From assembly GCA_015698285.1 (NCBI GenBank), contig CP048685.1, positions 2,294,001 through 2,358,000 on the forward strand: a stretch of DNA of 64,000 bases, read 5' to 3'. The notes under the pieces were generated by a model. The model had not been told where the DNA came from. It did no database searches and saw only the letters and a list, made by a program, of their open reading frames with translations. The stretch comes from Candidatus Nitronauta litoralis. Its GTDB lineage: Bacteria; Nitrospinota; Nitrospinia; Nitrospinales; Nitrospinaceae. This document shows, in pieces, positions 3,555-12,201 of the stretch. The translations under genes were made by a program, and so were the position numbers. The first letter of the stretch is position 1, and every line of letters starts with the position of its first letter.

Positions 3555-4535
3555 TCAGCCGCAGCAGGAGTCGCCAGCTTCCGGCTCAAAATTTTCGTTG
3601 TCCGGGTCGATGATGCTGAAATGGTCCCGGTAGGGAGGTTGACTCAAAAGGTGTCCTGTTGAGTCGTCGACTTCAGTGGGAACACCTACCTGGTATTCCT
3701 GTCCGGCGACTTCTATCTTGTTGAATGGGCCACCGTAAACCGCGAAAAATTCTTTGCAGCATGAAGGGTCGGCGAGTGGATCTGGTTTGAAGCCTTCCAG
3801 AATATAGGAGTAAAACTTGATGCCTTCGACCTCTTTCCAGAGATAGTCCTTCACCACGCGGAATCCGTGGAATTCTGCCTTGCGTGCATAGTCCAGAAAT
3901 TCTTCTAGTGTCAGTGCTCCCGAGATACATTCGCCCCAGAGTTCCTTATTGGTGCGCATGGTTTCTGGCACAGGTTGGTCGGAAATGATGTCTGAAATGA
4001 CGAAACGACCGCCGGGTTTGAGAATCCTCTTGATTTCGCGAAAGACCTCTTGTTTTTCAGTCGACAGGTTGACCACGCAGTTGGAGGTCACGACATTGGC
4101 AGTGGTATCATCTACAGGGATGGCTTCCAGAAACCCTTGATGAAATTCAACGTTTGAATACCCCAGGTTGGAAGCGACCTCTTTTGAATGGTGACGCGCT
4201 TTGTCCAGCATTTCATCGGTCATATCAATACCGATCACGCGGCCCTCTGCACCCACAACTTTTGCTGCGATGAAACAGTCGATGCCTCCACCGGAACCAA
4301 GGTCGACCAGTGTTTCCCCGGATGTAATGGACGCACGGCTGACCGGGCTGCCACAGCCATAGGAAATAGACAAAACCTCTTCCGGAATATGGGATAAATC
4401 GCCCGTGTCATATTTGACCGGACAGCACAGGCTTTCCTGGCTGGCGACAGCCGCTTTTGCATAAAAATCCCGAACTTCATTGCGAGAAACACCTTGTTGG
4501 GTTGCGGCCTGGTTTGCAGATGACCGGTCGTTCAT
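3555..4535 (-). CDS. ArsM-like SAM-dependent methyltransferase
   Basis: 326 residues. A class I SAM-binding motif LVDLGSGGGIDC (about 76-87) is followed by GRVIGIDMTDEML and VVTSNCVVNLS, and then by VISDIISDQPVPE and WGECISGAL. These motifs, with the Cys residues in YGCGSP (C61), SNC and ECISG, are those of arsenite methyltransferases. Extra cysteine pairs occur at LCCPV (37-38), SCCKEFF and the C-terminal DSCCG, which suggests metalloid or metal binding. The C-terminal domain (about 250-326) is longer than in minimal ArsM. It lies between the anti-sigma gene and the sulfite-oxidase-like gene in one transcription unit. An ArsR-type regulator is encoded divergently. Arsenic as substrate is inference. 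Confidence 0.75.
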   Translation of the reverse strand: MNDRSSANQAATQQGVSRNEVRDFYAKAAVASQESLCCPVKYDTGDLSHIPEEVLSISYGCGSPVSRASITSGETLVDLGSGGGIDCFIAAKVVGAEGRVIGIDMTDEMLDKARHHSKEVASNLGYSNVEFHQGFLEAIPVDDTTANVVTSNCVVNLSTEKQEVFREIKRILKPGGRFVISDIISDQPVPETMRTNKELWGECISGALTLEEFLDYARKAEFHGFRVVKDYLWKEVEGIKFYSYILEGFKPDPLADPSCCKEFFAVYGGPFNKIEVAGQEYQVGVPTEVDDSTGHLLSQPPYRDHFSIIDPDNENFEPEAGDSCCG

Positions 4536-4565
4536 GCTGATATCCTTTCGTTAATTGGGAGCCTG

Positions 4566-4862
4566 TCAGGGGTTAAGAGATTTTTTCAGTCGCTCTTTAA
4601 ACTCCGGACTGAGCTGTTCATTCTTTAGCACTGGAGAATCTTCCTGTCCCAGGCATTGGGCAAGACCTCCAAGAGTCTGGAGTTGTTGCAGATAACATTT
4701 ACAAACCCCGCACAGGACCAAGTGCATTCTAAGTCTCATTTTCTGGCAGAAAGTGAGAGGATGATCCAGGCTTTCCGAAATGAGAGGAGAAGTCTGTTCG
4801 CAGGATAGTCTCATCCATTTAACCACGCGAGTATTCAGTTTTTCAACCAGGGAGCCACTCAT
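4566..4862 (-). CDS. zinc-finger anti-sigma factor
   Basis: 98 residues. The region around 18-65 (LSCEQTSPLISESLDHPLT, then RMHLVLCGVCKCY) matches the zf-HC2 anti-sigma pattern: an early Cys near SCEQ, then His-x3-Cys-x2-Cys near 47-54 as zinc ligands. There is no transmembrane helix, so it should be a soluble, cytoplasmic zinc anti-sigma. Its ATG overlaps the stop of the sigma-factor gene by 4 bp (ATGA type), implying translational coupling and a matched sigma/anti-sigma pair. It is followed 30 bp later by the ArsM-like gene. Cysteine-zinc anti-sigmas often sense redox stress or metals; here that is inference. Confidence 0.75.
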   Translation of the reverse strand: MSGSLVEKLNTRVVKWMRLSCEQTSPLISESLDHPLTFCQKMRLRMHLVLCGVCKCYLQQLQTLGGLAQCLGQEDSPVLKNEQLSPEFKERLKKSLNP

Positions 4863-5428
4863 TTCTGATCCAGATTGTGGTGATTCTCAAGACATTTCTT
4901 TAGTTGGTTTCTTGCACGATGCAGTATTACCCATAAATTTGTCGGTTGTATATCAAATTCCTTACAAATTTCAGCAGAATCCAACCCTTCGACCTCTTTC
5001 ATAACAAAAATAGCCCTAAATTTCTCATTCAATCTATTCATACATTTGGCCAACGCTTGCGCCAATTCCGTGTTCTCTGCTGCTTTTTCAGGTTCGAGTG
5101 CCCATTTCCGTGGAGGGTGAATCCAGTGTCCGGTTTCATCATAGGCATCTTCGTATGGGTCCGAATCGTCGTCGGATGTTAATTCAAAAGTCCTTTGTTT
5201 TTTGACGTGCCGGAAATGGTCCAGGATTTTATGTTTCAGGATGCCAAAGAGCCAGCTTTTCTCGGTCGATCGGCCCTGAAAGGATTTGCTTGATTGAAGC
5301 GCTGCCATCAGGGCTGTCTGGACCAGTTCTTCAGCGACATCCTGATCTTTGACCCGGACCAGTGCGAACCGGTACAACATGTCGCCGTAGCGATCAACCC
5401 ATTCCTCACTGTTCAGGGATTCGCTCAT
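4859..5428 (-). CDS. ECF-type RNA polymerase sigma factor
   Basis: 189 residues. Region 2 (about 10-80: MLYRFALVRVKDQDVAEELVQ, then SWLFGILKHKILDHFRHVKKQ) and region 4 (about 120-180: LNEKFRAIFVMKEVEGLDSAEI and a helix-turn-helix ending HRARNQLKK) are both present, and there is no region 3, as in ECF sigma factors. An acidic linker (DDDSDPYEDAYDE) lies between them. A weak GGAAC-type ribosome site precedes the ATG. It heads the operon sigma - anti-sigma - ArsM-like - sulfite-oxidase-like, and probably drives at least part of this operon. The arrangement with a divergent ArsR gene suggests dual control. Confidence 0.9.
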   Translation of the reverse strand: MSESLNSEEWVDRYGDMLYRFALVRVKDQDVAEELVQTALMAALQSSKSFQGRSTEKSWLFGILKHKILDHFRHVKKQRTFELTSDDDSDPYEDAYDETGHWIHPPRKWALEPEKAAENTELAQALAKCMNRLNEKFRAIFVMKEVEGLDSAEICKEFDIQPTNLWVILHRARNQLKKCLENHHNLDQK

Positions 5429-5457
5429 TAATTGTTCCGATATCCTGTTGTCCCTTG

Positions 5458-5486
5458 TTGACGGGTCCCGGTTGAGTTCCTATACT
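5458..5486 (+). promoter_or_regulatory. sigma-70 promoter of arsR-like gene (leaderless)
   Basis: TTGACG (5458-5463) and TATACT (5481-5486) are separated by exactly 17 bases. The expected start of transcription falls at or next to the ATG at 5493, so the mRNA would be leaderless. No Shine-Dalgarno is seen before this ATG, which fits. The site lies in the 64-bp gap to the divergent sigma-factor gene. Confidence 0.6.
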
Positions 5487-5492
5487 GCACTC

Positions 5493-5816
5493 ATGACCAA
5501 ACAACCTGACACAGGTGAATGCGCCCGTATTTTGAAAGCACTTGGCGACGAATCCCGACTCCACATAGTTCGTCACTTGTTGCAGGGTGAAAAAAATGTT
5601 TCCGAGTTGGTTGATCTCCTGGCCATGCCTCAACCTCAAGTGTCCCACCACTTGTCTATTTTAAGGGCCAGCGGTCTCACAGGGTCTCGCCGCGAAGGCA
5701 CCAGAATCATTAATTTCATTGAACCCGAAGTACGATCCCTCCTTACAAAAGAATCCCTCGGTCTTGATTTTGGCTGCTGTTCGATTCAGTTCGATGAACG
5801 CGGACCCGCTTCCTAG
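5493..5816 (+). CDS. ArsR-family winged-helix regulator
   Basis: 107 residues from the ATG at 5493; an upstream in-frame TTG at 5448 would add 15 residues but lies before the promoter. The order is typical of ArsR/SmtB: ILKALGDESRLHIVRHLL, then VSELVDLLAMPQPQVSHHLSILRASGL as the recognition helix-turn-helix, then the wing RREGTRIINF. The C-terminus has LGLDFGCCSIQF, a Cys pair that could bind a metal or metalloid. It is transcribed divergently from the sigma/anti-sigma/ArsM-like operon and is a good candidate repressor of the shared region. Its effector is unknown. Confidence 0.85.
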   Translation: MTKQPDTGECARILKALGDESRLHIVRHLLQGEKNVSELVDLLAMPQPQVSHHLSILRASGLTGSRREGTRIINFIEPEVRSLLTKESLGLDFGCCSIQFDERGPAS

Positions 5817-5901: not shown

Positions 5902-8900
5902 TTAGAAAACCCTGTTGTTTTCCTGACGGGATGCGGCATCTGAATATAAACGTCTATAAATTCCGTAGTTGCGCATGACCCGTTTGACATAACCTCGAGT
6001 CTCAGGGTAGGGAATAGATTCTATAAAAACATCTTCGTCCCGGATGTGAGCAAATCGCTTGAGCCATTTTTCCAAAACATGCGGTCCGGCATTATATGAA
6101 ATGAGAAGGTACATACCCTTATTTCCAAACCGTTCTGTGAGCTGCCCGAGAAACTTGATACCCAGACTCACATTGACCCGTGCGTCAAACAGGGTTTCCG
6201 GGTCGTAAGAAGTATCGCCCTTTCCTGCAGAATACAGGCGCCTACCGGTTTCAGGCATGATCTGCATCAACCCGCGTGCTCCGGCAGGCGAGACAATGTC
6301 GTCGTCAAAAAGGCTTTCCTGCCGGATAAGCCCATCGACAAAAAACGGATCAACCGAGTAGGCGGCTGCAGGTTTTTTGATCAGATCGAAATAGGCCAGG
6401 GGGAAAAAGTTTTTCCAAAATGCGACGGGTAAATCTTTTTCCCCAGCCGGTTGTTTGTAATCGCGGTACATATAAAGAACCCGCATGGCTTCCGGGTAGG
6501 CCCGGCTTTTAATATACAAGTCGGAGGCCCACAAAACCCCGGACAGGTTTTTACGCAGGGTGGAAACAGCTTTCCGCGCTTCCAGTCGGGCTTCATCGTA
6601 GAGACCCATTTCCGATAAGGTAATGGCCCGAGTGTAATGGAAATTTTCCTGTTCGGTCAAGGAACGGTTTAGTCCTTTGGGGCTTTCCCCTGGAGAGGTG
6701 AACCCGGTTTTGATCATGCGAGGCACAGTATTTGCCGGTAGTTCCTGTTTGAGCAATATCACCTTCTCCTCAGCGCGTACCCCATAATAAGTATATGGAA
6801 ATTGTTCAAGCAGGGTGGCAAAAGTCTTTAGAGCTTCGAGTTTTTTTCCGGATAACTCGTTGAGTTTTGCAAGCCAGAAAAGATTTTTTGCAGTCCAGAT
6901 AGTGCCCGGCCAGCGTTCGATGTTTTTCTGAAACTGTTTGATTCCTTCACCAAAATTTTTTGTCCTGAAAGCGATCCACCCGAGCCGCCATGCGGCTTTT
7001 TCAAGGTATGAACTGCTTCCACCCATGGCCAACAGTTCACTGTAGTATTTTTTTGCGGGATCATATTGTTTGCTGTTTTCGTGCAATCGACCTAGATAAA
7101 AACGCGACGTGGCTTTCCAGGAATTTTTTGAAGTAGTCTCGAGGACTTTTCTGAAATACTTTTTTGCTTCCCCGTCGTGTCCCAGGTTCCATAGCGTACG
7201 ACCAATTTTGAATCTGGCCTGCTGGAGTTTTCCATGGTTGGGGTAGATTTTGATAAATTCTTTTAAGATAGAAACTACCAACTGGCGCTTTCGGACTCCG
7301 TTATAGGCTTTCGCCATATTGAAGTACCATTCAACGGGAAGTTTCCTGTTGCCCATTTCATTTTTGTAGGCATTCAGTTCACGCAAAGCCTCTTTGTATC
7401 GTGCGGACTTGAAAAGGCGTGAGACCCTTTTGTTTAGCTCTCGCTCTGTAAGGGAGGGTGGCTTGAGAGCCTGGCTCCTGACAATCCTCTTGAGAGCTTT
7501 CTCTGCAACTTTTGCTGATTCGTGATTGGGGTGTTCCACAAAAATTTTGCGATAGTTGAGATAGGCACGACTGGGTAGTTTTTCTGTTTCCTGGAGTCTG
7601 CCCGCCTGCAGGATGAGCTCTGGAATAAACTGGGCAAAATCTGACTCTGCCTTTTTGCCAGTCAAACGGGCTATGGCCTCTTCCAGAAAAAATATAGCCT
7701 GCTCAGTCTGGCCAAGTCCATGCAGGGCACGGGCACGCAATTGTTCGGCTTGAGGGATGATCCGCGACTGTGGAAAATTTTGTAACAGATAAGAGGTTTC
7801 TTCAAAGGCGCTTTTCGCGGAACCCAAAGCAAGGTTGATCTTTGCCAGCTCAAGCCGTGTGTAATCCTCCAGTTCTGGCAAAGCAGTTAGTGATTTTTGA
7901 AAATAGGTCGTGGCTTCTTTGTATTTTTTTTGTTTGGAAAGGCAGCGCCCCATTAAAAATCCAGCGCGGATACCCTGAGGGGTGTTTGCTTCATTAGAAA
8001 CCAGGGGCTTCAAAGCTTCGCAAGCAGCTTTGGGTTTTTTGTACTTAAGATAACGGGCCGCGTCCTGCATTTGCCCTGCCCAGGATTTCGCAACTGGAAA
8101 TACCAGAAAAAGGGCAAGGACTGACAGTGCAGCCACTGCACTGATGGTCCCTGACAGTTTTGCAAGGATCTGGGTTTTTAAGGTTCGGGGAGTTTCTTTT
8201 GGGCCGACTTCAATCGTTTGTGCTCCCGGGCTTTTTTTAAACCAGGTGATTTGTCGTTTTGCGTAGCGTCGGGTTTCACGTTTTATATCTTCTACTGCAT
8301 CCTCAAGGTCCATTTGATGCTTGATGACCTTGTTCAATTGGGCATAACCGATTCCCTGAAACGGTTTGCATGTTTCGGGGATTCCCTGATCCTGCAAATC
8401 GCGCACTTCGCCTAACCACCCCTTTTTGATCATCTGGTCCACGCGTTTGTTGACTGCTTCATAAAGTCGGGTGCGGTCCATGGTCAGGACAAAGAGATGG
8501 ACATCGTAGTTTCTGAAGGTGTGGGAGTCTTTCTCATGATATTGAGACAATGGGTTCCCGGTTTGATAAAAAACGGTCAACGCTCGTTCGATTCGAGAAG
8601 GGTCGGTGGGTTTAATTCTTTCAGCGCCGACGGGATCTACCTTCACCAACTCGGCGTGCATCGCCTCCGGACCTTTCAATTTAATTTCTTTTCGAATCCG
8701 GTTCCGGAGTTCCGGGTCAGCCGCTTCACCACACTCAAAATTCTCCATGAGTACCTTTAAGTAAAGGCCGGTTCCTCCGGCGAGAACAGGAATACGGCTC
8801 TTTTGATGCAGGCCATGAATTATGGTTTCTGCACGTTGTTTAAAATCGTGGGCTGTGAACTCCTCGTGGGGTTCCAGGCTGTCGATCAGGTGGTGTTTCA

Positions 8901-9069
8901 CACGTGCGCGCAGTTCGGCTGATGGTTTGGCGGTGCCAATATCAAAATGCTTGTAGACCTGCATCGAATCCGCGCTGATGATTTCCGTATTCAGAGTTTC
9001 TGCCAGTTCAACGGCAGTTTCACTCTTCCCGGTAGCGGTGGGACCGGCCAGGATAATTAAAGGATTCAT
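5902..9069 (-). CDS. miaA: fusion: MiaA tRNA dimethylallyltransferase + membrane-anchored TPR/lytic transglycosylase
   Basis: A single 1055-codon frame. Residues 1 to about 300 are a full-length MiaA: P-loop GPTATGKS (9-16), IISADSMQVYK, LAGGTGLYLK, DPSRIERAL and the C-terminal QITWFKK. MiaA adds a dimethylallyl group to A37 of UNN-reading tRNAs in the cytoplasm. Residues about 308-326 form one hydrophobic helix (SAVAALSVLALFLVFPVA). From 333 to about 870 there are TPR-like helical repeats, and about 905-1040 form a transglycosylase SLT domain with catalytic Glu918 (RQES), GLMQIMPETG and SYNAGP. This second half resembles Slt70-type murein hydrolases of the periplasm. No stop codon separates the halves. 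An internal GTG (Val312, 8136-8134) preceded by AGGGA could let the transglycosylase be made separately with the helix as signal peptide. Its start overlaps trmN by 50 bp. Confidence 0.9.
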   Translation of the reverse strand: MNPLIILAGPTATGKSETAVELAETLNTEIISADSMQVYKHFDIGTAKPSAELRARVKHHLIDSLEPHEEFTAHDFKQRAETIIHGLHQKSRIPVLAGGTGLYLKVLMENFECGEAADPELRNRIRKEIKLKGPEAMHAELVKVDPVGAERIKPTDPSRIERALTVFYQTGNPLSQYHEKDSHTFRNYDVHLFVLTMDRTRLYEAVNKRVDQMIKKGWLGEVRDLQDQGIPETCKPFQGIGYAQLNKVIKHQMDLEDAVEDIKRETRRYAKRQITWFKKSPGAQTIEVGPKETPRTLKTQILAKLSGTISAVAALSVLALFLVFPVAKSWAGQMQDAARYLKYKKPKAACEALKPLVSNEANTPQGIRAGFLMGRCLSKQKKYKEATTYFQKSLTALPELEDYTRLELAKINLALGSAKSAFEETSYLLQNFPQSRIIPQAEQLRARALHGLGQTEQAIFFLEEAIARLTGKKAESDFAQFIPELILQAGRLQETEKLPSRAYLNYRKIFVEHPNHESAKVAEKALKRIVRSQALKPPSLTERELNKRVSRLFKSARYKEALRELNAYKNEMGNRKLPVEWYFNMAKAYNGVRKRQLVVSILKEFIKIYPNHGKLQQARFKIGRTLWNLGHDGEAKKYFRKVLETTSKNSWKATSRFYLGRLHENSKQYDPAKKYYSELLAMGGSSSYLEKAAWRLGWIAFRTKNFGEGIKQFQKNIERWPGTIWTAKNLFWLAKLNELSGKKLEALKTFATLLEQFPYTYYGVRAEEKVILLKQELPANTVPRMIKTGFTSPGESPKGLNRSLTEQENFHYTRAITLSEMGLYDEARLEARKAVSTLRKNLSGVLWASDLYIKSRAYPEAMRVLYMYRDYKQPAGEKDLPVAFWKNFFPLAYFDLIKKPAAAYSVDPFFVDGLIRQESLFDDDIVSPAGARGLMQIMPETGRRLYSAGKGDTSYDPETLFDARVNVSLGIKFLGQLTERFGNKGMYLLISYNAGPHVLEKWLKRFAHIRDEDVFIESIPYPETRGYVKRVMRNYGIYRRLYSDAASRQENNRVF

Positions 9070-9775
9070 AGATTGATTTCATTGCTGAGGTGTAAGAACC
9101 GTTTTTCTCATAGATAAAAAACCGGTCTTCCTCGCAGTTTGCCTCCTCAAGGTTCCGTTCAGCTAGTATCAGAAAAAACCGTGCGGGCAAAGATTCGTTG
9201 CCAAAAACTTTCCTTACCTTAACGGGTTGGAGTCCATTCGAAACCAGTACCTGTTTGACTTCTTCCAGCCGTTCAGTGGGATACGCCAGACACAGTTTTC
9301 CGCCAGGGTTTAAGTGTTTCTCTGCGCGGGAGACTAGAGACTCAAGAGTCAGGGTAATTTCATGTCGTGCCAGTGCTTTTTCCCGATCCGGGTTGATACG
9401 TCCGCTGTTAAGTTTTCGATAGGGTGGATTACTGATAACCCAATCAAAGGTTTCATTTAAATGTGCCAGGGACCATTCCAGGAAATCTGCGTGCACCAGT
9501 TGGACGCGGTCCAGTGCATTGTTGTCTGCTAAATTGGATTGCGCTTTTTGGATCAGGGATTCCTGGATTTCAATAGCACGGAACAAAAGTTTCGGCTGCC
9601 GGGTGAGCAGTAATAACGGAATAATGGAACAGCCCGTCCCCACTTCAAGGCACCGGCTGCCAGCTTCCGGTCTGACAAAGTCTGCCAGAAGAAAAGGCTC
9701 CATTGAAAACCGATAGCCTGTCCCATTTTGATCGAGAACCAAACTCACGGAAGCTCCTGAAAAACGATAACCCAT
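9020..9775 (-). CDS. trmN: tRNA1(Val) A37 N6-methyltransferase-like (TrmN/YfiC family)
   Basis: 251 residues. The Rossmann-fold SAM motif LEVGTGCSIIPLLLL (about 39-53) and the N6-adenine motif NPPY (about 114-117), followed by ARHEITLTLESLVSRAEKHL and GGKLCLAYPTERL, are those of the YfiC/TrmN6 branch. The length agrees with the family (about 245). Its 3' end overlaps the miaA start by 50 bp, so both genes are probably co-transcribed. Both products act at tRNA position A37, which supports the assignment. It is divergent from the small membrane-protein gene at 9955. Confidence 0.85.
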   Translation of the reverse strand: MGYRFSGASVSLVLDQNGTGYRFSMEPFLLADFVRPEAGSRCLEVGTGCSIIPLLLLTRQPKLLFRAIEIQESLIQKAQSNLADNNALDRVQLVHADFLEWSLAHLNETFDWVISNPPYRKLNSGRINPDREKALARHEITLTLESLVSRAEKHLNPGGKLCLAYPTERLEEVKQVLVSNGLQPVKVRKVFGNESLPARFFLILAERNLEEANCEEDRFFIYEKNGSYTSAMKSIYESFNYPGRSHRYREE

Positions 9776-10258: not shown

Positions 10259-11230
10259 CTATCCCAGGAATCTGGACCAGCGTGAATATTTTTTAGTAAG
10301 AAGCCGGATCACTGGCTCGCCGGAACACACTAAAGGGTGATGACGGCAAGCGAAGACAAGACCTTTTTCTGGTGCCTTTATTTCTTCCAGGACTTTTCCA
10401 TCATACAATCCTTGAATCTCACCCAGTTTTTGACCTGCTTCAACGGTTATCTTTGTTCCAACTTCGCTGATAAAAAAGCCTGCGCGTTCACAGGTTATTT
10501 CCCTCTCCCCATTGGCTGCATAGAGGCTGGTATCTTGTTTCGCTTCTTTCATTTCAGGGTGCGTTAGTAATCCGGTGGCAAGAAGATAATTCAACATCCC
10601 CTTGAATAACTTTTCTCCACTATTTCTGTCCATAACAGAGGCCTCACCTGTTCCGATGGCCAGGGCTTTTAAATGGCAGTCCTGCCATTGTTTGAGGACC
10701 TGCAAATTTTCCAGAGGGTTTTTTTCTTCCAGCAAAGCCACTTCGAGCCCTAAGGAGCCGGCAAGTTTTTTCATTTTGCCATCTGCTTTTAACAGATTGA
10801 CGTGAGGCATTTCCTGCCACCATCTTTTTGGTCCTTTCAGTACGATTGCGAAGTCGGAGCGGACGGTATGTTGCAGAAGAATATTGCACAGTTTTTCCGT
10901 GAGTTCCCCTTCAATGGTTCCGGGGAATGCGACGTTTGTATCCAGGTGGTCAAAGTTCCAGACAGAGGCACCGGCTTCCATGGCTCTTAAATGAACCACA
11001 GGAAACAGTTGAATGTTTCCTGTGATCTGGTAACCATTTCCCAATCCATCCGAAATCTGATCGAGAAAAGCAGCGAGACGCATGACACTGTAAAGTCCGG
11101 TAAGACTATGACCGTGCAGGCCCGTCACAATTGAAACGGTCTCGGGAATCTCTTCTTTTCCAAACCAGGACCGTTTGTACAGGGTGACGGGTTCTCCTAA
11201 TGGTGATGTGGTTTCGTAAAGGATTTCCAT
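10259..11230 (-). CDS. succinylglutamate desuccinylase/aspartoacylase-like protein lacking zinc ligands
   Basis: 323 residues from the ATG at 11230; a longer frame reaches 11419 but overlaps the previous gene. The ATG shares its A with the preceding stop (TGATG), so translation is coupled. The fold matches its upstream neighbour along the whole length (VTGLHG, FPVVH, DTNVAFPG, C-terminal KVLEEIKAP.KGL.F). The M14 zinc motif is broken: HGDE of the neighbour is HGHS here (Glu to Ser42), and the third ligand His aligns with Lys132 (VLKGPK instead of DFHASN). It is probably not a working metallohydrolase. It may be a regulatory or ligand-binding paralogue. It is the last gene of the FmdB-NtrBC operon. 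Confidence 0.75.
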   Translation of the reverse strand: MEILYETTSPLGEPVTLYKRSWFGKEEIPETVSIVTGLHGHSLTGLYSVMRLAAFLDQISDGLGNGYQITGNIQLFPVVHLRAMEAGASVWNFDHLDTNVAFPGTIEGELTEKLCNILLQHTVRSDFAIVLKGPKRWWQEMPHVNLLKADGKMKKLAGSLGLEVALLEEKNPLENLQVLKQWQDCHLKALAIGTGEASVMDRNSGEKLFKGMLNYLLATGLLTHPEMKEAKQDTSLYAANGEREITCERAGFFISEVGTKITVEAGQKLGEIQGLYDGKVLEEIKAPEKGLVFACRHHPLVCSGEPVIRLLTKKYSRWSRFLG

Positions 11231-12201
11231 CACGGTGGAGGCTCCTTTTCCAGTGCGACCCGCGCCAAAAGTGACCCGGCATATGTGATGGGATGTTCCC
11301 GAAGAGTGAACAGCAATCCGGATGCCGGGGCTTTTATTTCTTCCAGCACTTTTCCCCGGACCGGATCCAGGATGTTTCCAATGTGCTGGCCTTCTCCAAC
11401 AAATTCGCCCAAATGGCAATCCGAAACAAACAGCCCTGGTTTTTCAGCACTGACCGATATCACCTGATTGGCCCTGATCGGCAAAGGGTTTTTCATTCGT
11501 CCTGCCACCGAGACTGATTGATCCAGAATACCGGTTTCTTTCATAAGGTGAACAATCCCAGCAAATACCTGGTCGCCATACTCGGGTGTGATGCGGTGGC
11601 AGATTCCGGCTTCGATGACAAGGGTGCGGACTTTGGATTTGTTCAGGTTGTAGCCTAGAGTCGCCGCGAACAGGTCTGCCATGGGATGGGACCATACCAG
11701 ATCTGTATTGGTGAGCATGGCAAGCGGTAACAGCGAGGAAGACCACTCATCAATCATACGGACTTGTGGTAATTCCTGGAGGTGCAGGTTGCTGGCATGA
11801 AAATCCACCGCAATATCGGCATGGGTTTTGATATCTTCAATCAGTTTTGATGAAAATTGCGCCGTGAGCTCTTTTGGTTTGGGAAGACCCATGGTCCGGT
11901 TCATGTCAGTGCCGTGACCAGGCCACAACCGTGAAGCGTGATTAAGCGCCGGAGGATTGACCGCGGGATATACGTGTACCTCACCCAAAAGTGATGACGG
12001 GTTATTCGTTTCTATTTGTTCAAGAAAATTGAGAAGCCGGTGTCCGACGTACAAGCCTTCGAGTTCGTCCCCATGCAGGCCCGTGATAAAGGCCAGGCGA
12101 GGAGTGTTGACTTGTTTTTTCTCGGGCAGGAAGGATTGGCGGAGGAGTTCCACCCGGGTTAAAAACGGGGTTTCAAATGAAGCGATGACCTCGGTTTTCA
12201 T
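11230..12201 (-). CDS. succinylglutamate desuccinylase/aspartoacylase family zinc hydrolase
   Basis: 323 residues. The AstE/AspA (M14-like) zinc site is intact: H43-x-x-E46 in TGLHGDELEG and H135 in DFHASN. Between them lies the substrate-binding region with YPAVNPPAL and GTDMNRTM. The C-terminal barrel domain repeats the pattern GLFVSDCHLGEFVGEGQ...VRGKVLEEIKAPASGLLF. Such enzymes cleave N-acyl or amide bonds of amino-acid derivatives; the exact substrate is unknown. The ATG overlaps the stop of the NtrC-like gene by 4 bp, and its own stop overlaps the start of the degenerate paralogue. The operon context suggests a nitrogen-linked role. Confidence 0.8.
   Translation of the reverse strand: MKTEVIASFETPFLTRVELLRQSFLPEKKQVNTPRLAFITGLHGDELEGLYVGHRLLNFLEQIETNNPSSLLGEVHVYPAVNPPALNHASRLWPGHGTDMNRTMGLPKPKELTAQFSSKLIEDIKTHADIAVDFHASNLHLQELPQVRMIDEWSSSLLPLAMLTNTDLVWSHPMADLFAATLGYNLNKSKVRTLVIEAGICHRITPEYGDQVFAGIVHLMKETGILDQSVSVAGRMKNPLPIRANQVISVSAEKPGLFVSDCHLGEFVGEGQHIGNILDPVRGKVLEEIKAPASGLLFTLREHPITYAGSLLARVALEKEPPP

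Follow-up and report, generated by a model that had tools for sequence, protein, structure and literature searches.

What does a bacterial cell make from a single reading frame that joins a tRNA-modifying enzyme to a murein hydrolase? MiaA acts in the cytoplasm and SLT enzymes act on the periplasmic cell wall, and the two were encoded without interruption by one gene in Candidatus Nitronauta litoralis. The gene was examined within a window of 64,000 nucleotides, the whole stretch of DNA analysed (contig CP048685.1, positions 2,294,001 to 2,358,000), and in the genomes of relatives.

One open reading frame contains a complete MiaA and a complete SLT domain

The fused gene is a single open reading frame of 1055 codons with an ATG start (window positions 5902-9069, minus strand). 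By domain matches, its 1055-residue product consists of MiaA, a signal-peptide-like segment, helical repeats and an SLT domain, in that order. A sequence-only reading of this DNA had described a complete MiaA, a hydrophobic helix, TPR-like repeats and an SLT domain with Glu918 in one frame, and all of these parts were confirmed here by the open reading frame, profile matches and structure matches.

The MiaA part (residues 1-306; 8152-9069, minus strand) is complete, including its C-terminal strand and helix. The equivalog model TIGR00174 matched residues 4-280 over model positions 1-277 of 288 (E=1e-91), with a score of 307 bits against a cut-off of 149; PF01715 matched as well, and MiaA was the top fold match. 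The P-loop and the motifs DSMQVYK, GGTGLYLK and KRQITWF were all present, and columns invariant among 48 sequences included T11, K15, D34, S35, Q37, R159, R199, R267, R272 and W276. Given that the E. coli MiaA structure 2zm5 aligned over residues 4-303, and thus up to its own C-terminus, the hydrophobic core (residues 307-324; 8098-8151, minus strand) starts almost directly after MiaA ends. The genome is one contig of 3.92 Mb and held a single PF01715 (IPPT) gene; the fused gene is therefore the only source of MiaA that was found.

In the second half, TPR profile matches, the AlphaFold model and fold matches to 1qte and 5ohu placed a TPR-like helical superhelix at about residues 340-880 (6430-8052, minus strand), ahead of the SLT catalytic domain at residues 896-1008 (6046-6384, minus strand; PF01464, E=7e-23). 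Slt70 (1qsa) aligned to residues 886-1044 (E=6e-26), and Foldseek matched the two halves to MiaA 2zm5 and Slt70 1qte. The catalytic Glu918 (codon 6316-6318, minus strand) lies within an I-x-Q-E-S motif (I915, Q917, E918, S919) that was invariant in the 48 full-length orthologues. A second, separate SLT protein, with an open frame of about 810-950 codons, was observed in many genomes of the order; none was listed in the window's own genome.

Several neighbouring genes were also noted. A methyltransferase gene with an MTS domain, TrmN6-like (9020-9775, minus strand), overlaps the miaA start by 50 nt in another frame (9020-9069), and most genomes of the order showed an overlap of similar length. 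Next to the fused gene on its other side, positions 3555-5816 hold a sigma-70-type factor (by Pfam) with a small downstream open reading frame and, as judged by eye, a methyltransferase resembling arsenite methyltransferases and an ArsR-like regulator. Further away (10259-12201) lie two adjoining, overlapping open reading frames whose translations have, by eye, the look of paralogous succinylglutamate desuccinylase/aspartoacylase-type proteins.

The fusion is found throughout the order

Homologues were sought in 61 genomes of the same order and 77 of the phylum. Almost every genome of the order with coverage of the locus yielded a full-length collinear homologue, mostly at about 40% identity; some incomplete genomes in the order gave no miaA match, and one further genome (G029) ends ahead of the junction. 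The junction set comprised 59 junctions from 58 genomes in 4 families and 15 genera of Nitrospinota. In all 59, including those of three single-contig genomes (G000, G017 and G031), one frame ran from MiaA into the hydrophobic segment without a stop, and the internal stops flagged by the homologue search were terminal stops. One genome bin (G050) carried the fused gene in two differing copies (L007 and L052), for which bin contamination (5%) is a likely cause.

In other orders of the class, miaA and slt were separate genes. They were direct neighbours in two families (f8 and f9; L083-L087), with the slt start, as we infer the choice of start codon, 1-17 nt inside the miaA end in a different frame; they lay near each other in a third family (f7) and on different contigs in two more (f5 and f6). 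The fusion was absent from 71 genomes of the phylum of G084, including the Thermodesulfovibrionales locus L045, and from 69 genomes of the phylum of G081, the two genes lying at different places in both. Long open frames around miaA in five other genomes (G098, G143, G172, G175 and G223) were considered as well: two passed a quick motif screen, and no SLT domain was found in the tails inspected. In trees of each half, with midpoint rooting, the fused sequences were set apart from all outgroups, and a literature search found no paper on a MiaA-transglycosylase fusion. The sequence-only reading had named two separate genes in all related genomes as one finding that would count against it; this is what we found outside the order, whereas within the order the fusion held throughout.

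The junction is conserved in design and under purifying selection

When 48 full-length proteins were aligned, the junction followed a common plan, in which the motif KRQ-x-TWF is followed by a variable stretch, a helix with conserved positions and the hydrophobic core. In the helix, position 300 was Lys in 88%, position 302 Leu in 90% and position 306 Pro in 90% of the proteins, with Gln300 and Ser306 in the window's own genome. An AlphaFold model built with 48 sequences (mean pLDDT 87) was confident for the MiaA and SLT parts and of low confidence at residues 308-331; in it, one helix (294-321) links the end of MiaA to the core.

In MiaA, the repeats and the SLT domain, dN/dS pooled over 18 pairs was 0.10, 0.14 and 0.06, respectively; at the junction it was 0.19 (residues 280-306) and 0.22 (residues 307-331). 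The junction values indicate that these codons are under purifying selection and, by this sequence evidence, that the junction is translated. These data also bear on the idea that the fusion is an assembly or sequencing error, or a pseudogene, as might be asked where most genomes are draft assemblies. Both possibilities were rejected, their combined probability being negligible, in view of the 59 homologous junctions, the three single-contig genomes among them, dN/dS values that stay well below 1 in every part and the invariant catalytic residues.

Internal starts are not conserved

A translated junction might still accompany two products from nested starts, namely the full-length fusion (or MiaA alone) and a separately initiated, secreted SLT protein. 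For the window's own gene, the sequence-only reading had proposed such a start at the GTG codon of Val312 (8134-8136, minus strand). This proposal did not hold up, as the codon falls within the hydrophobic core, a start there would lack a basic n-region, and the codon is not conserved even within the same genus. Across the order, ATG, GTG and TTG were all absent within 25 codons before the core in 26 of the 59 junctions, and a start codon with a Shine-Dalgarno match of at least 4 bases was found near the core in only 5 of 59; as a background rate, matches of this strength precede roughly 16% of all in-frame start codons within these genes, and matches of at least 6 bases under 1%.

Two orthologues speak for nested starts. 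In L017, a GTG has a 5-base Shine-Dalgarno match. In L069, whose family is the first to branch off in the SLT tree, the sequence TAAGGA stands 10 nt before an in-frame ATG, about 18 codons past the KRQ-TWF motif and directly ahead of the core; the resulting MIKNKIFAK would be a good n-region, and the rarity of such Shine-Dalgarno matches adds to its weight. This signal, found in one genome, may have survived from the start that slt had in the ancestor. Considering the order as a whole, we regard production of the two proteins from nested starts as quite unlikely.

The hydrophobic segment resembles a cleavable signal peptide

A small-x-Ala motif was present in the 15 residues after the core in 51 of 59 junctions by a strict rule and in 57 of 59 by a loose rule. 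Shuffling the same 15 residues, a modest test in a region rich in Ala and small residues, gave a mean of 35.6 of 59 (standard deviation 3.2, maximum 44) under the strict rule and a mean of 46.4 (maximum 54) under the loose rule; windows of the mature region carried the motif in 24% (strict) or 48% (loose) of cases. Examples of the sites were SWA-G, AVA-G, VLA-N, SQA-G, TEA-K, SFA-E and ASA-S. In the window's own protein, the putative signal peptidase I site is S-W-A (residues 329-331; 8077-8085, minus strand), with a predicted cut between A331 and G332, and two signal peptidase S26 matches were found in the genome. Residues 307-331 thus look like a cleavable signal peptide, and the motif data favour cleavage as a prediction.

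This bears on the alternative of a stable bifunctional membrane protein, in which the chain would stay uncut and fix MiaA to the inner membrane, and the SLT domain would work outside and be tied to translation. Retention of the in-frame fusion in 59 junctions agrees with such a protein, as does the length of the window's own core with its flanks (27 residues by one definition), which is enough to span the membrane. However, small-x-Ala sites follow the core in nearly all orthologues, above the shuffled expectation; the core is short, at 12-15 residues, in 10 of 59; outgroup SLT proteins carry, as judged by eye, ordinary N-terminal signal-peptide-like segments; and the fusion could be conserved without any joint function. 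We therefore consider an uncut protein unlikely, though it deserves mention. The topology of the sequence-only reading, with MiaA inside and SLT outside, was supported as a prediction and recurred throughout the order, but its description of the transglycosylase as membrane-anchored is probably wrong for the SLT half, for which release is the more likely fate. It is more likely MiaA, rather than SLT, that keeps the membrane segment.

A probable polyprotein and its origin

We consider it probable that the gene encodes a natural polyprotein, of which MiaA remains cytoplasmic and from which signal peptidase I, acting at an internal signal peptide, frees a periplasmic transglycosylase. At the level of sequence, one frame and the lack of a conserved internal start show that the mRNA yields one chain. 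MiaA would then fold in the cytoplasm and modify tRNA, as its intact conserved motifs and its status as sole MiaA of the genome suggest. The last helix of MiaA would serve as the n-region and lead into the hydrophobic segment, which may act as an internal Sec signal. The TPR/SLT half would be exported and cut by signal peptidase I after the conserved small-x-Ala, here after Ala331. Two proteins are predicted to result: MiaA carrying a membrane tail at its C-terminus, and a lytic transglycosylase resembling Slt70 that is soluble and located in the periplasm.

Some features stand against the polyprotein. The charge of the n-region is weak, at about -3 to +3 across the 15 residues before the core; some 300 residues ahead of a signal peptide is unusual; a few orthologues are without a clean site, two of them (L014 and L069) having poor sites and two (L063 and L080) Gly at -1; and L069, a basal lineage, has its TAAGGA and ATG rightly placed for a separate start.

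The fusion would date back to a single event in the order's ancestor, which carried miaA and slt as a translationally coupled pair. A frame-changing indel in such an overlapping pair is the most likely route, because the outgroup genes are separate and, in the two families with neighbouring genes, overlap in different frames. Once formed, the weld may have persisted by being nearly harmless after cleavage, while loss of the slt start would make reversal hard. For the same reason, order-wide conservation of the fusion is no proof that the two activities depend on one another. A working device, in which MiaA would stay at the membrane, either for good or until cleavage by signal peptidase, and tRNA modification or the state of translation would be stoichiometrically tied to export of the murein hydrolase, appears rather unlikely to us.

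If the polyprotein reading is true, bacteria of a whole order have long kept a polyprotein of two unrelated housekeeping enzymes that work in different compartments. It would also mean that a signal peptide can have the C-terminal helix of a cytoplasmic enzyme in place of its n-region, and that gene welds of this kind can be made tolerable by signal peptidase. The reading would further predict that, in Nitrospinota, MiaA is bound to the membrane and the tRNA modifier and the murein hydrolase are synthesized in equal amounts. Moreover, automatic annotation with one name per gene would mask one of the two functions.

Comparison with known systems

Compared with known MiaA, the tRNA dimethylallyltransferase (TIGR00174; structures 2zm5, 3foz and 2qgn), the first half is a complete domain that scores above the equivalog cut-off and, in the fold match, is 36% identical to E. 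coli MiaA; it differs in that its C-terminal helix continues into the signal-peptide-like segment and a second enzyme. With Slt70-type soluble lytic transglycosylases (1qsa, 1qte and 5ohu), the second half shares an SLT domain with a catalytic Glu on a helical superhelix and an export signal ahead of it. The superhelix of the fusion, however, scored as TPR repeats, and the likeness beyond the SLT domain is structural, at 16-20% identity. In addition, Slt70-type enzymes have a cleavable signal peptide at the N-terminus, whereas the signal-like segment of the fusion is internal (residues 307-331), behind MiaA.

Bradyrhizobium FbcH is a cytochrome b/c1 polyprotein cut by signal peptidase. Here, too, one bacterial gene gives two proteins through cleavage at an internal signal sequence, although for the MiaA-transglycosylase fusion the cleavage is a prediction. 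Like a polyprotein, the fusion has a single frame without a conserved internal start, and an internal core followed by a small-x-Ala site. The FbcH products both belong to one membrane complex, in contrast to the two enzymes of the fusion, which have unrelated functions and compartments.
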